Below are positions 7,035 to 59,843 of a stretch of DNA of 64,000 bases, one piece after another; position 1 is the first letter of the stretch; the number at the start of each line of letters is the position of its first letter. The notes beneath the pieces are model-generated. The model worked only from the letters and a program-made list of their open reading frames with translations, was not told the origin of the DNA and made no database searches. The position numbers were made by a program, and so were the translations under genes. Source of the stretch: Marinomonas sp. SBI8L (GTDB lineage: Bacteria; Pseudomonadota; Gammaproteobacteria; Pseudomonadales; Marinomonadaceae); contig NZ_JSEO01000005.1 in the NCBI RefSeq assembly GCF_001624705.1, forward strand, positions 248,001 to 312,000, given 5' to 3'.

Positions 7035-7304
7035 TTAAGGAACCTGTGAATAAGTCCTCCCCCTCAGCGTATGGATAAAAGCGCCTAGATTTATGGCGAG
7101 GAGCGTAACTTAATAGTTATTCTATTGATAAGGCCCTCAACGTAAAGATAGGGCTTTTAAAACACGCCCTTTGGGTCTTTCAGAAAAAGCGCCACCCTGT
7201 GTTGTCCCTTTTCGAAAGGTGCCTACATTACGTCAAAGTGACGCCTTGCTTGACGCTTTTTCTGAAAAGACTGAAAAGAGGTGACTTAATCGCAGGTTCC
7301 TTAG
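7035..7304 (+). mobile_element. IS5-type MITE, copy 1 (262 bp plus target sites)
   Basis: The element runs from GGAACC at 7039 to GGTTCC at 7300 between TTAA (7035-7038) and TTAG (7301-7304), a YTAR target pair with one mismatch. Its ends are inverted repeats of about 20 bp with one change (GGAACCTGTGAATAAGT here). It differs from copy 5 at about a dozen positions, and the right-hand 100 bp are almost identical. An internal inverted repeat TTTCAGAAAAAGCG / CGCTTTTTCTGAAAA makes a large hairpin. It contains no coding frame. Its right edge touches the stop codon of the chemoreceptor gene (7305-7307, minus strand). The DnaA-box word here is TATGGATAA, one base off consensus. Confidence 0.85.
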
Positions 7305-30813: not shown

Positions 30814-30900
30814 CTAGGGAACCTGCGAATAAACCCTCCCACCTCAGCGTGTGGATAAAAGCCCCTATATTTATGATGAGGGACATTTAACAATTTATAT
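30814..30900 (+). mobile_element. IS5-type MITE, copy 2 (left-end fragment)
   Basis: CTAG (30814-30817) is followed by GGAACCTGCGAATAAA and about 80 bp that match the left part of the complete copies, including a perfect DnaA-box word TGTGGATAA at 30850-30858. Similarity fades near 30900 and the right end is missing, so this is a decayed or deleted copy. It begins on the base after the LysR stop codon. Confidence 0.8.
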
Positions 30901-31012: not shown

Positions 31013-31480
31013 GTGAACAAAACATACTCTTACGCTACGATAGCGTTATTTTCGGGTGCCCTTCTAGCGCTCATGATCCAGTTAAATTCACAGCTTGCCT
31101 TACTCAATTCCCCCCTTGAGGCATCATGGATTGCTCATGGATTAGGGGCTTTTTGTGCATACGCTATATTGCTAATCATTGGCACAAAAAAGCTTAATGC
31201 AGGCGCAATAAAAGACGAAAAAGCTAAATGGTACAGTTACTTAGGTGGTTTGCCTGGCGCTATGACAGTCATGCTTGCAGCTGTTACTGTGAATTCCGAA
31301 TTAGGCCTTGCTGGCACTTTATCCTTGGCCTTATTAGGGCAAATTCTATTTAGTTTAATAGTGGATAGTTTTGGCCTATTCAATAGCCCAAAAAGGCGGC
31401 TTGGTTGGCACGATGTAAAAGTAATTTTCCTCATTTTAAGCGGCAGTATGCTCATCATTTTTGCAGGTAATTCTTTATGA
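31013..31480 (+). CDS. DUF606 (YdcZ-type) small DMT transporter subunit 1
   Basis: 155 residues, GTG start at 31013 behind a weak AAGG. About five membrane helices are visible, beginning YATIALFSGALLALMIQLNSQ. Half-size DUF606 proteins are related to the DMT/EamA superfamily and often come as tandem paralogous pairs that may assemble as a heterodimer. The second member follows with a four-base overlap (ATGA at 31477). The substrate is unknown. Confidence 0.85.
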   Translation: MNKTYSYATIALFSGALLALMIQLNSQLALLNSPLEASWIAHGLGAFCAYAILLIIGTKKLNAGAIKDEKAKWYSYLGGLPGAMTVMLAAVTVNSELGLAGTLSLALLGQILFSLIVDSFGLFNSPKRRLGWHDVKVIFLILSGSMLIIFAGNSL

Positions 31481-31971
31481 GTTTATTGATCCTCTTAGCC
31501 TTAACTAATGGTCTCTGCATTGGTTTAAGTCGCAGCCTCAATGGCCAATTAAGCCTACATAAAGGGCCATTTAAGGCATCATTTTATAACCATATTTTTG
31601 GCTTTCTATTTTTAAGCTTGATTCTTATTTGCCTAGATACTGAGTTGAGTAGCCTAACACCAGCATGGCACAAGGAAACCTGGTATTTATTTTTAGGCGG
31701 TGTCATTGGTGCTTTTTATGTGGCACTCAATAGTTATGTTTTAAATCAGCTAGGGGCGATGAAGGCGGCACTACTTGTCATTAGTGGGCAGATGGTGACG
31801 GGAGTATTATTAGATATTGTATTTAGTGCTAGTCTAGATAAGCTTTTCCCTTATGTTCTGCAAGGGCTAGGTATCATATTCATTATTTTGGGAGTGAGAC
31901 TTTCTCAAAAAAAGCCGAAGGAGATAATTAAGGAACCTGCGAATAAGTCCTCCGCCTCAGCGTGTGGATAA
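31477..31971 (+). CDS. DUF606 (YdcZ-type) small DMT transporter subunit 2, C-terminus altered by a MITE
   Basis: 164 residues with about five helices; LALTNGLCIGLSRSLNGQLS resembles the first helix of subunit 1. The frame enters MITE copy 3 at 31932, so its last 13 residues (KEPANKSSASACG) come from the element and the TAA lies in the DnaA-box word. Removing the element and one TTAA restores a frame ending N-K-R-H-P-C-H-S then TAA. The change is confined to the cytoplasmic tail, so the transporter may still function. Confidence 0.85.
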   Translation: MSLLILLALTNGLCIGLSRSLNGQLSLHKGPFKASFYNHIFGFLFLSLILICLDTELSSLTPAWHKETWYLFLGGVIGAFYVALNSYVLNQLGAMKAALLVISGQMVTGVLLDIVFSASLDKLFPYVLQGLGIIFIILGVRLSQKKPKEIIKEPANKSSASACG

Positions 31972-32233
31972 AAGCCGCTAGATTTATGGCGAGGAGCGCA
32001 ACTTAATAGTGATTCTATTGATAAGGTTCTCAACATAAAGATAGGGCTTTTAGACCACGCCCTTCGGGTCTTTGAAGAATACCTAAACGGCATTTCAGAA
32101 AAAGTAGCACCCTGTGTTGTCACTTCTCGAAAGGTACCTACATTACGTCAAAATAACTCCTTGCGTGATACGTTTTCCCATATACCTTAGAAGAGCAGAC
32201 TGAGAAGAGGTGACTTAATCGCAGGTTCCTTAA
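31928..32233 (+). mobile_element. IS5-type MITE, copy 3 (298 bp plus TTAA duplication)
   Basis: The element spans 31932-32229 with perfect TTAA on both sides (31928-31931 and 32230-32233). Terminal inverted repeats are GGAACCTGCGAATAAGTC and its complement with one change. It is longer than copies 1 and 5 because of extra bases around 32080-32100 and 32170-32195. A perfect DnaA-box word lies at 31963-31971. It separates the rightward DUF606 gene from the leftward DUF1653 gene. Confidence 0.88.
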
Positions 32234-43729: not shown

Positions 43730-43967
43730 TTAAGGAACCTGCGATTAAGTAACCTCTTCTCAGTCTTTTCAGAAAAAGCGTCAAGCAAGGCGTCACTTTG
43801 ATGTAATTTAGGCATTCTTCAAAGACCCGAAGGGCGTGATCTAAAAGCCCTATCTTTAAGTTGAGGGCCTTATCAATAGAATAACGATTAAGTTTCGCCC
43901 CTCGCCATAAATCTAGAGACTTTTATCCACACGCTGAGGCGAGTGGGCTTATTCACAGATTCCTTAA
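43730..43967 (-). mobile_element. IS5-type MITE, copy 4 (inverted, 230 bp plus TTAA duplication)
   Basis: The element spans 43734-43963 in the opposite orientation, flanked by TTAA at 43730-43733 and 43964-43967. One end is GGAACCTGCGATTAAGT, the other has GATTCC instead of GGTTCC. About 35 bp of the full-length form are missing near the 5' side. A perfect DnaA box TTATCCACA is at 43923-43931. The TAA stop of the leftward MATE gene is inside the right TTAA. Confidence 0.87.
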
Positions 43968-59551: not shown

Positions 59552-59576
59552 CTAGGGGAAAAAGACTTTTTCCTAG
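59552..59576 (+). terminator. possible terminator after hslO, split by a MITE
   Basis: CTAGG (59552-59556) pairs with CCTAG (59572-59576), with AAAA and TTTT inside. The second CTAG is also the left target site of MITE copy 5, so the element sits at the edge of this hairpin. Confidence 0.4.
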
Positions 59577-59843
59577 GGAACCTGCGAATAAGTCCTCCCG
59601 CCTCAGCGTGTGGATAAAAGCGCCTAGGTTTATGGCGAGGGACGTAACTTAATAGTTATTCTATTGATAAGGCCCTCAACTTAAAGATAGGGCTTTTAGA
59701 CCACGCCCTTCGGGTCTTTCAGAAAAAGCGCCACCCTGTGTTGTCCCTTTTCGAAAGGTGCCTACATTACGTCAAAGTGACGCCTTGCTTGACGCTTTTT
59801 CTGAAAAGACTGAGAAGAGGTGACTTAATCGCAGGTTCCCTAG
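59573..59843 (+). mobile_element. IS5-type MITE, copy 5 (263 bp plus CTAG duplication)
   Basis: The best-preserved copy: GGAACC at 59577 to GGTTCC at 59839, perfect CTAG on both sides (59573-59576 and 59840-59843). Terminal repeats GGAACCTGCGAATAAGT and ACTTAATCGCAGGTTCC match but for one base. It contains the internal inverted repeat TTTCAGAAAAAGCG / CGCTTTTTCTGAAAA and a perfect DnaA-box word TGTGGATAA at 59609-59617. It has no coding frame. The next gene's stop codon is one base from the right CTAG. Confidence 0.92.

Follow-up and report, generated by a model that had tools for sequence, protein, structure and literature searches.

The usual picture of MITEs is one of IS deletion products of recent origin that are limited to a species and constrained at their ends only, and they are generally viewed as short-lived leftovers of bigger transposons. 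The Correia/NEMIS repeats of Neisseria are likewise small, gene-less and present in many copies, and they are transcribed as hairpins; their target is TA and their ends are unlike those of the family described here. The IS5 subgroup (transpos_IS5_4, NF033581) has ends and a YTAR target in common with our family, these being the two features compared. Members of the subgroup carry a transposase gene, whereas the family carries none, and it is therefore a derivative of the IS5 subgroup rather than a member of it.

The closest known element is MITEPsy1 of Pseudomonas syringae pv. phaseolicola, which has IS5-type 18-nt ends beginning GGAAGGTCTGA, duplicates CTAG or YTAA, contains no gene, is 100 nt long and has been observed to move (PMC3189936). 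Similar sequences are reported from Marinobacter and elsewhere, and close copies are reported to be restricted in distribution (PMC3189936). The end type, the CTAG/YTAA target and the absence of a gene are common to MITEPsy1 and our family, the usual length of which is about 263 nt; the available part of the MITEPsy1 description includes no conserved fold. In Coxiella burnetii, QMITE1 and QMITE2 occur in approximately 50 copies per genome, have stable predicted folds and are bordered by direct repeats of 2-3 or 7-11 nt, and QMITE1 is reported to have no relatives elsewhere (PMC5896051). They resemble our family in copy number and in the stability of their folds and differ from it in their direct repeats, and the portion of their description available to us contains no covariation.

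A literature search, with most subscription papers outside its scope, yielded no description of the family. Its MITE ends, YTAR target and IS5 type are of a known kind; the interior is the new part. What is unexpected for MITEs is an interior fold that is kept by paired mutations while the ends change, in many mostly marine bacteria.

Copies in the window and in the draft genome

The window, by which we mean the whole 64-kb stretch of DNA analysed, had been described as holding five repeats with common ends and defined flanks, four of them complete and one truncated, and we recovered exactly this arrangement. When up to 3 mismatches are allowed, 9 sites in the window match the 17-bp end, compared with a mean of 0.13 and a maximum of 2 in shuffled sequences. 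Copy 1 (7035..7304, plus strand; element 7039-7300) is flanked by TTAA and TTAG, and copy 5 (59573..59843, plus strand; element 59577-59839) by CTAG on each side; these two differ in 11 of 263 aligned columns, in agreement with an earlier estimate of about a dozen sites. The usual element length is 262-263 bp. Copy 3 (31928..32233, plus strand) is a 298-bp form with two insertions (31932-32229), and copy 4 (43730..43967, minus strand) is a 230-bp deletion form (43734-43963), each with TTAA on both sides. Copy 2 (30814..30900, plus strand) is truncated; its left end starts at 30818 after CTAG, and a right end was looked for and is absent. In copy 5, the terminal inverted repeats lie at 59577..59593 on the plus strand and 59823..59839 on the minus strand. 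A model of the interior core, described below, matches copies 1, 3, 4 and 5 at 7152-7275, 32067-32190, 43759-43849 and 59691-59814, respectively.

The copies had been thought to hold no coding frame. This is correct in that they contain no transposase gene, and incorrect in that copy 3 contributes coding sequence to an open reading frame at 31477-31971. The frame ends within copy 3, such that approximately the last dozen codons and the stop come from the element, and the C-terminus of the protein is re-written by the insertion. As stated earlier, there is no transposase partner in the window, where neither PF01609 nor PF05598 has a match.

We extended the search to the draft genome, which comprises 5.19 Mb in 69 contigs. 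A 19-base end pattern with at most 2 mismatches gave 65 forward and 67 reverse matches, and the backwards control gave 0. A model of the right-hairpin core gave at least 68 matches, with 150 of 1945 candidates scored. Extraction around the core matches gave 71 intervals with an end at each side; in two cases a pair of intervals has an end in common, leaving about 69 elements. The commonest interval length is 263 bp (29 of 71). The flanks are TTAA/TTAA in 25 and CTAG/CTAG in 16 of the 71 intervals, are identical in 44 and conform to YTAR at both sides in 52. The five copies in the window therefore belong to a much larger family of approximately 70 copies genome-wide. Its spread, originally judged fairly recent, is partly older, because copy 5 has 86-97% identity with the remaining full-length matches.

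The best-scoring named core matches are from Marinomonas transparens, Marinomonas sp. MED121 and an uncultured Marinomonas. MED121 and this genome share a 5-kb colinear stretch with approximately 81% identity in its best pieces, and together these data make Marinomonas the probable genus. In this stretch we found an empty site, the sole one in our comparison of retrieved loci: CTAG-element-CTAA of this genome corresponds to a lone TTAG in MED121, and the flanks are 81% identical. The elements are short, contain no transposase gene and have terminal inverted repeats, and the identical flanks, together with the empty site, indicate target-site duplication, all as expected for a MITE. The YTAR flanks, the empty site and the existence in relatives of IS5-family elements whose ends are alike support the original reading of an IS5-type MITE.

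Partner transposases

The existence of a full IS5-family element with matching ends in a related genome had been proposed, alongside an empty site such as that in MED121, as a check on this reading, and such an element is present in G010, a related genome of the genus. This element (L110) is 1141 bp long with CTAG at each side, and each of its 17-bp ends is 1 mismatch from the MITE end. Its protein matches the NCBIfam model transpos_IS5_4 (NF033581) at 6.9e-96 and 320.9 bits, compared with a cut-off of 140, and contains the Pfam domains DDE_Tnp_1 and DUF772. The frame is uninterrupted at 311 aa, as against 337 aa for open frames in relatives, so that its activity is uncertain. Interrupted IS5-family relatives with like ends occur, again within the genus, in G010 and G021 (L093, L096), and IS5-family elements with like ends occur outside the taxonomic family, in G031 (L379, L080). 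In G010, at 2407-2450 of the L110 locus, the IS5 element adjoins a second, GGAAGG-ended copy of the repeat, and the CTAG between them is common to both. In G029, from another family of the order (loci L374 and L142), the end of an IS5-like fragment, GGGACCTCTGAATTAATC, resembles the end of the local repeat, GGAATCTCTGAATTAATC, as if the ends followed the local transposase.

A search with the L110 protein gave no match at E of 1e-10 or below in this genome, a 69-contig draft, and none in G013, G018 or G020. G013 and G018 are single-contig assemblies in which the repeat is still present, with 22 core matches in G013, and the repeat thus persists where a transposase of the L110 type is not found. 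The search leaves other transposases possible as movers. In this genome, PF01609 has 5 and PF05598 has 3 profile matches, corresponding to 7-8 loci in total (including L061 at 812-2154, L114 and L115), which by eye are IS1182-like and several of which are cut by contig ends. In the retrieved stretches around the PF01609 loci, no MITE-like end was found at up to 5 mismatches apart from one 5-mismatch chance match, and those around the remaining loci contain none at up to 4 mismatches.

The interior fold

The core model recognizes the gene-less interior well beyond the genus. At E up to 1e-4, 43 of the 244 genomes sampled from the order have a match, in 27 of 112 genera and 18 families; at E up to 1e-5, it matches 26 of 369 genomes of the class in 24 of 272 genera, with 25 of these genomes outside the order. 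In the phylum, the model matches 8 of 398 genomes, and just one match, a weak one, falls outside the class. This genome is included in the figures, and stricter filtering makes them lower bounds. Among the matches listed in a DNA pattern scan are Alcanivorax, Marinobacterium, Amphritea, Gilvimarinus, Porticoccus, Pseudomaricurvus, Motiliproteus, Marinobacter, Pseudomonas saliphila and Alteromonas antoniana. Copy 5 has no match in the plasmid collection, and one other core has none in the plasmid and phage collections. In Rfam 15, no covariance model matches the window at gathering scores and none matches copy 5 at E up to 1; the three matches obtained with five further loci scored far below the gathering values. 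The core model could be used to annotate unlabelled repeats in many mostly marine genomes.

Copy 5 folds much more stably than its shuffles, with z scores of -7.49 and -7.45 on the two strands. Its predicted fold has a left hairpin lobe at 59606..59706, for which cross-species strand counts favour folding of the plus strand, and a right hairpin lobe at 59713..59811, the modelled core, for which they favour the minus strand. Matches within the genus come from 13 of 24 other genomes, whose copies are approximately 70-75% identical and have GGAAGG in place of GGAACC at both ends, and an alignment of 24 sequences contains 73 pairs, of which 29 show double changes. Of the 36 stem pairs compared in 30 cores (15 families), 32 have changed on both sides in a compensatory manner, and 93.0% of cells are paired. 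These counts lean towards structure, since the cores were found by a model already holding 28 pairs and the 36-pair structure was derived from the same alignment. The covariation score is 0.662, as compared with 0.183 for shuffled and at most 0.112 for slid alignments. Conservation is higher in the inner unpaired columns than in the paired columns (1.02 versus 0.57 bits), and the former contain the motifs cAAGGCg, GCAGG-AATG, CCTTtc-AA and cAACgc. These comparisons show compensatory changes in the stems and conserved unpaired motifs, and the interior is predicted to be a conserved three-way-junction fold.

The left lobe has the same motifs as the right lobe on the opposite strand, and the right-lobe model matches left lobes on the opposite strand at no fewer than 12 of 33 loci and at 9 more in a further set; these counts leave out 5 opposite-strand matches in the first set and 1 in the second that re-read the same hairpin. 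For strand counts, G-U pairs were forbidden in folding because one-strand folding biases pair choice; the right unit retained 51 of 118 cores and the left unit 46. Read on the minus strand, the right lobe has 61 GT against 28 AC mismatches (26 sequences versus 10); read on the plus strand, the left lobe has 33 against 10 (22 sequences versus 3). Sign tests that ignore kinship give 0.011 for the right lobe and 0.00016 for the left. One apical pair runs opposite to this bias, with 9 AC and 0 GT. The counts suggest that the folding strand of each unit may be the one with its 5' end at the terminus closer to that unit. This would fit a transcript that comes in from one or the other side, or else the 5'-ended strand at each terminus.

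We compared substitutions private to one copy with those shared among copies. In this genome (38 copies), private substitutions are equally frequent in paired (0.440 per column) and unpaired columns (0.442) and break 52 pairs versus 60.3 expected, whereas 77 cells with shared variants retain a Watson-Crick pair versus 11.6 expected. Likewise, private changes in G013 (12 copies) break 15 pairs versus 16.0 expected and shared variants keep 8 versus 0.5, and in G210, from another family (16 copies), private changes break 31 versus 36.9 and shared variants keep 49 versus 3.9. Private changes in G210 are rarer in paired than in unpaired columns (0.27 versus 0.44). In each of the three genomes, private changes by which a Watson-Crick pair is preserved are more numerous than expected, with 9 observed and 3.0 expected in this genome, 2 and 1.0 in G013, and 9 and 2.4 in G210. 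Pooled, the comparison stands at 134 of 329 shared versus 20 of 151 private, the shared cells being non-independent events. Resident copies thus seem to decay almost freely, and the fold was retained in those from which other copies arose. Because private breakage is near chance and shared variants retain pairing, the fold seems to be selected in transposing rather than resident copies. The gene-less interior is recognizable across many families of Gammaproteobacteria and bears a signature of selection on transposing copies.

Explanations of the folded interior

The reading we favour, with moderate confidence, is that of a non-autonomous IS5-type MITE with a conserved interior fold that aids mobilisation, and with ends that drift with the partner. 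IS5-family transposases would recognize the MITE ends, move the element in trans and insert it at YTAR. In the presumed three-way junction, the paired ends would form one stem and two related, mutually inverted hairpin units the other two. Selection on the fold would act during transposition, with the fold aiding mobilisation or amplification. From sequence comparisons, we infer that it might do so as RNA or as single-stranded DNA, perhaps through pairing of the ends in single-stranded DNA, through a bound factor or through termination of transcripts that arrive from either side. The MITE ends would drift along with the partner transposase. If this is true, a non-coding interior is a working part of a transposon.

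The ends of core-bearing elements elsewhere bear on this reading. All 27 of the order loci examined have inverted ends, one of them (L148) weakly, and 24 measure 265-286 bp between the arms; of the named and class loci, 76 of 86 have inverted ends, 74 of them 262-297 bp long, in a set that includes a few duplicates of the same DNA and in which contig ends account for the position of some of the ten loci lacking such ends. Some end sequences are IS5-like (GGAACCTGCG, GGAGCCTCTGAATAA, GGGCACCTCTAATAATT) and others are very different from these (GCAGGCTGCTGAAAAA, TATACCCAAG), and related cores often have unalignable ends. Median end identity is 0.94, 0.83, 0.72 and 0.61 at core identities of 0.9-1.0, 0.8-0.9, 0.7-0.8 and 0.6-0.7, respectively, and in the last of these classes it is at the random level in about half of the pairs. 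Abrupt end exchange as a general rule is ruled out by this gradual fall; it is possible in a few pairs.

More tentatively, since we rather doubt it in this full form, the family could be a long-lived, class-wide mobile element with a two-unit folded core that is read from either end, as RNA or as single-stranded DNA, and needed for transposition, the ends following the local IS5-type transposase or being exchanged to suit it, and the core outliving its partners. Among the points against the favoured reading, core-less forms with both ends, mostly with YTAR-like flanks, exist at 87 bp (L215, L222, L223), 54 bp (L217, L224) and 53 bp (L221), and the core would not be required if the 53-54-bp and 87-bp forms transposed as such. 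The three 87-bp copies are different subtypes and could have arisen, as if repeatedly, by in-place deletion between repeated ACTTAAT; they neither show nor exclude movement of core-less elements.

It is unlikely, in our view, that this is an ordinary MITE lineage in which quasi-palindrome correction between the arms passively keeps palindromes and the fold has no function. Such a process would account for the stem variation among the 30 cores, nearly all of which is two-sided Watson-Crick exchange, and plain co-divergence would account for the fall of terminal inverted repeat identity with core identity. However, resident copies are uncorrected, as their private mutations break pairs nearly as often as expected; the unpaired inner columns are the better conserved ones; and the mismatch strand bias is not predicted by correction.

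Less probable again is an element useful to its host, such as a bidirectional terminator or a stabiliser of mRNA 3' ends, that is kept where it landed. According to a simple script gene caller, 39 of the 71 intervals lie between tandem genes, 17 between convergent and 13 between divergent genes, and 2 at edges; none lies wholly within a predicted gene and 3 overlap one. The scarcity of intervals in genes would suit such a role, as would the 31 of 69 copies within 30 nt of a stop codon (versus 30.8% of TTAA/CTAG sites, p 0.013) and the low number of copies, 3 of 69, at the same distance from a start (versus 25.4%, p 6e-6). However, gene-start avoidance is expected from tolerated insertion alone, orientation within tandem gene pairs is unbiased (20 same, 15 opposite), and private mutations in this genome are equally frequent in paired and unpaired columns. 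A preference for stop codons as such was set aside, being mostly explained by the positions of TTAA and CTAG. The context looks like tolerated insertion rather than host function.

Least probable is that the folded core is itself mobile, with its own recruitment as RNA or single-stranded DNA, ends borrowed from different transposons and jumps between partners: related cores do lie within very different ends, some non-IS5 by eye (L137, L354, L341), and 6 pairs combine a core identity of at least 0.80 with an end identity of at most 0.56, but end identity generally declines gradually with core identity, and the occurrence of YTAR close to the two borders of 33 of 75 elements from named genomes, versus 1.3% by chance, argues for one kind of transposase. 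This YTAR excess and the YTAR flanks of the intervals in this genome are what duplication at an IS5-subgroup target would give, as the favoured MITE reading expects.

Core-bearing elements with ends that are not of the IS5 type comprise L137, L354, L337, L355, L341 and L351. By eye, some elements lacking YTAR borders have duplications of CTGG or CAAG, and the TATACCCAAG-ended elements may use a TA target.
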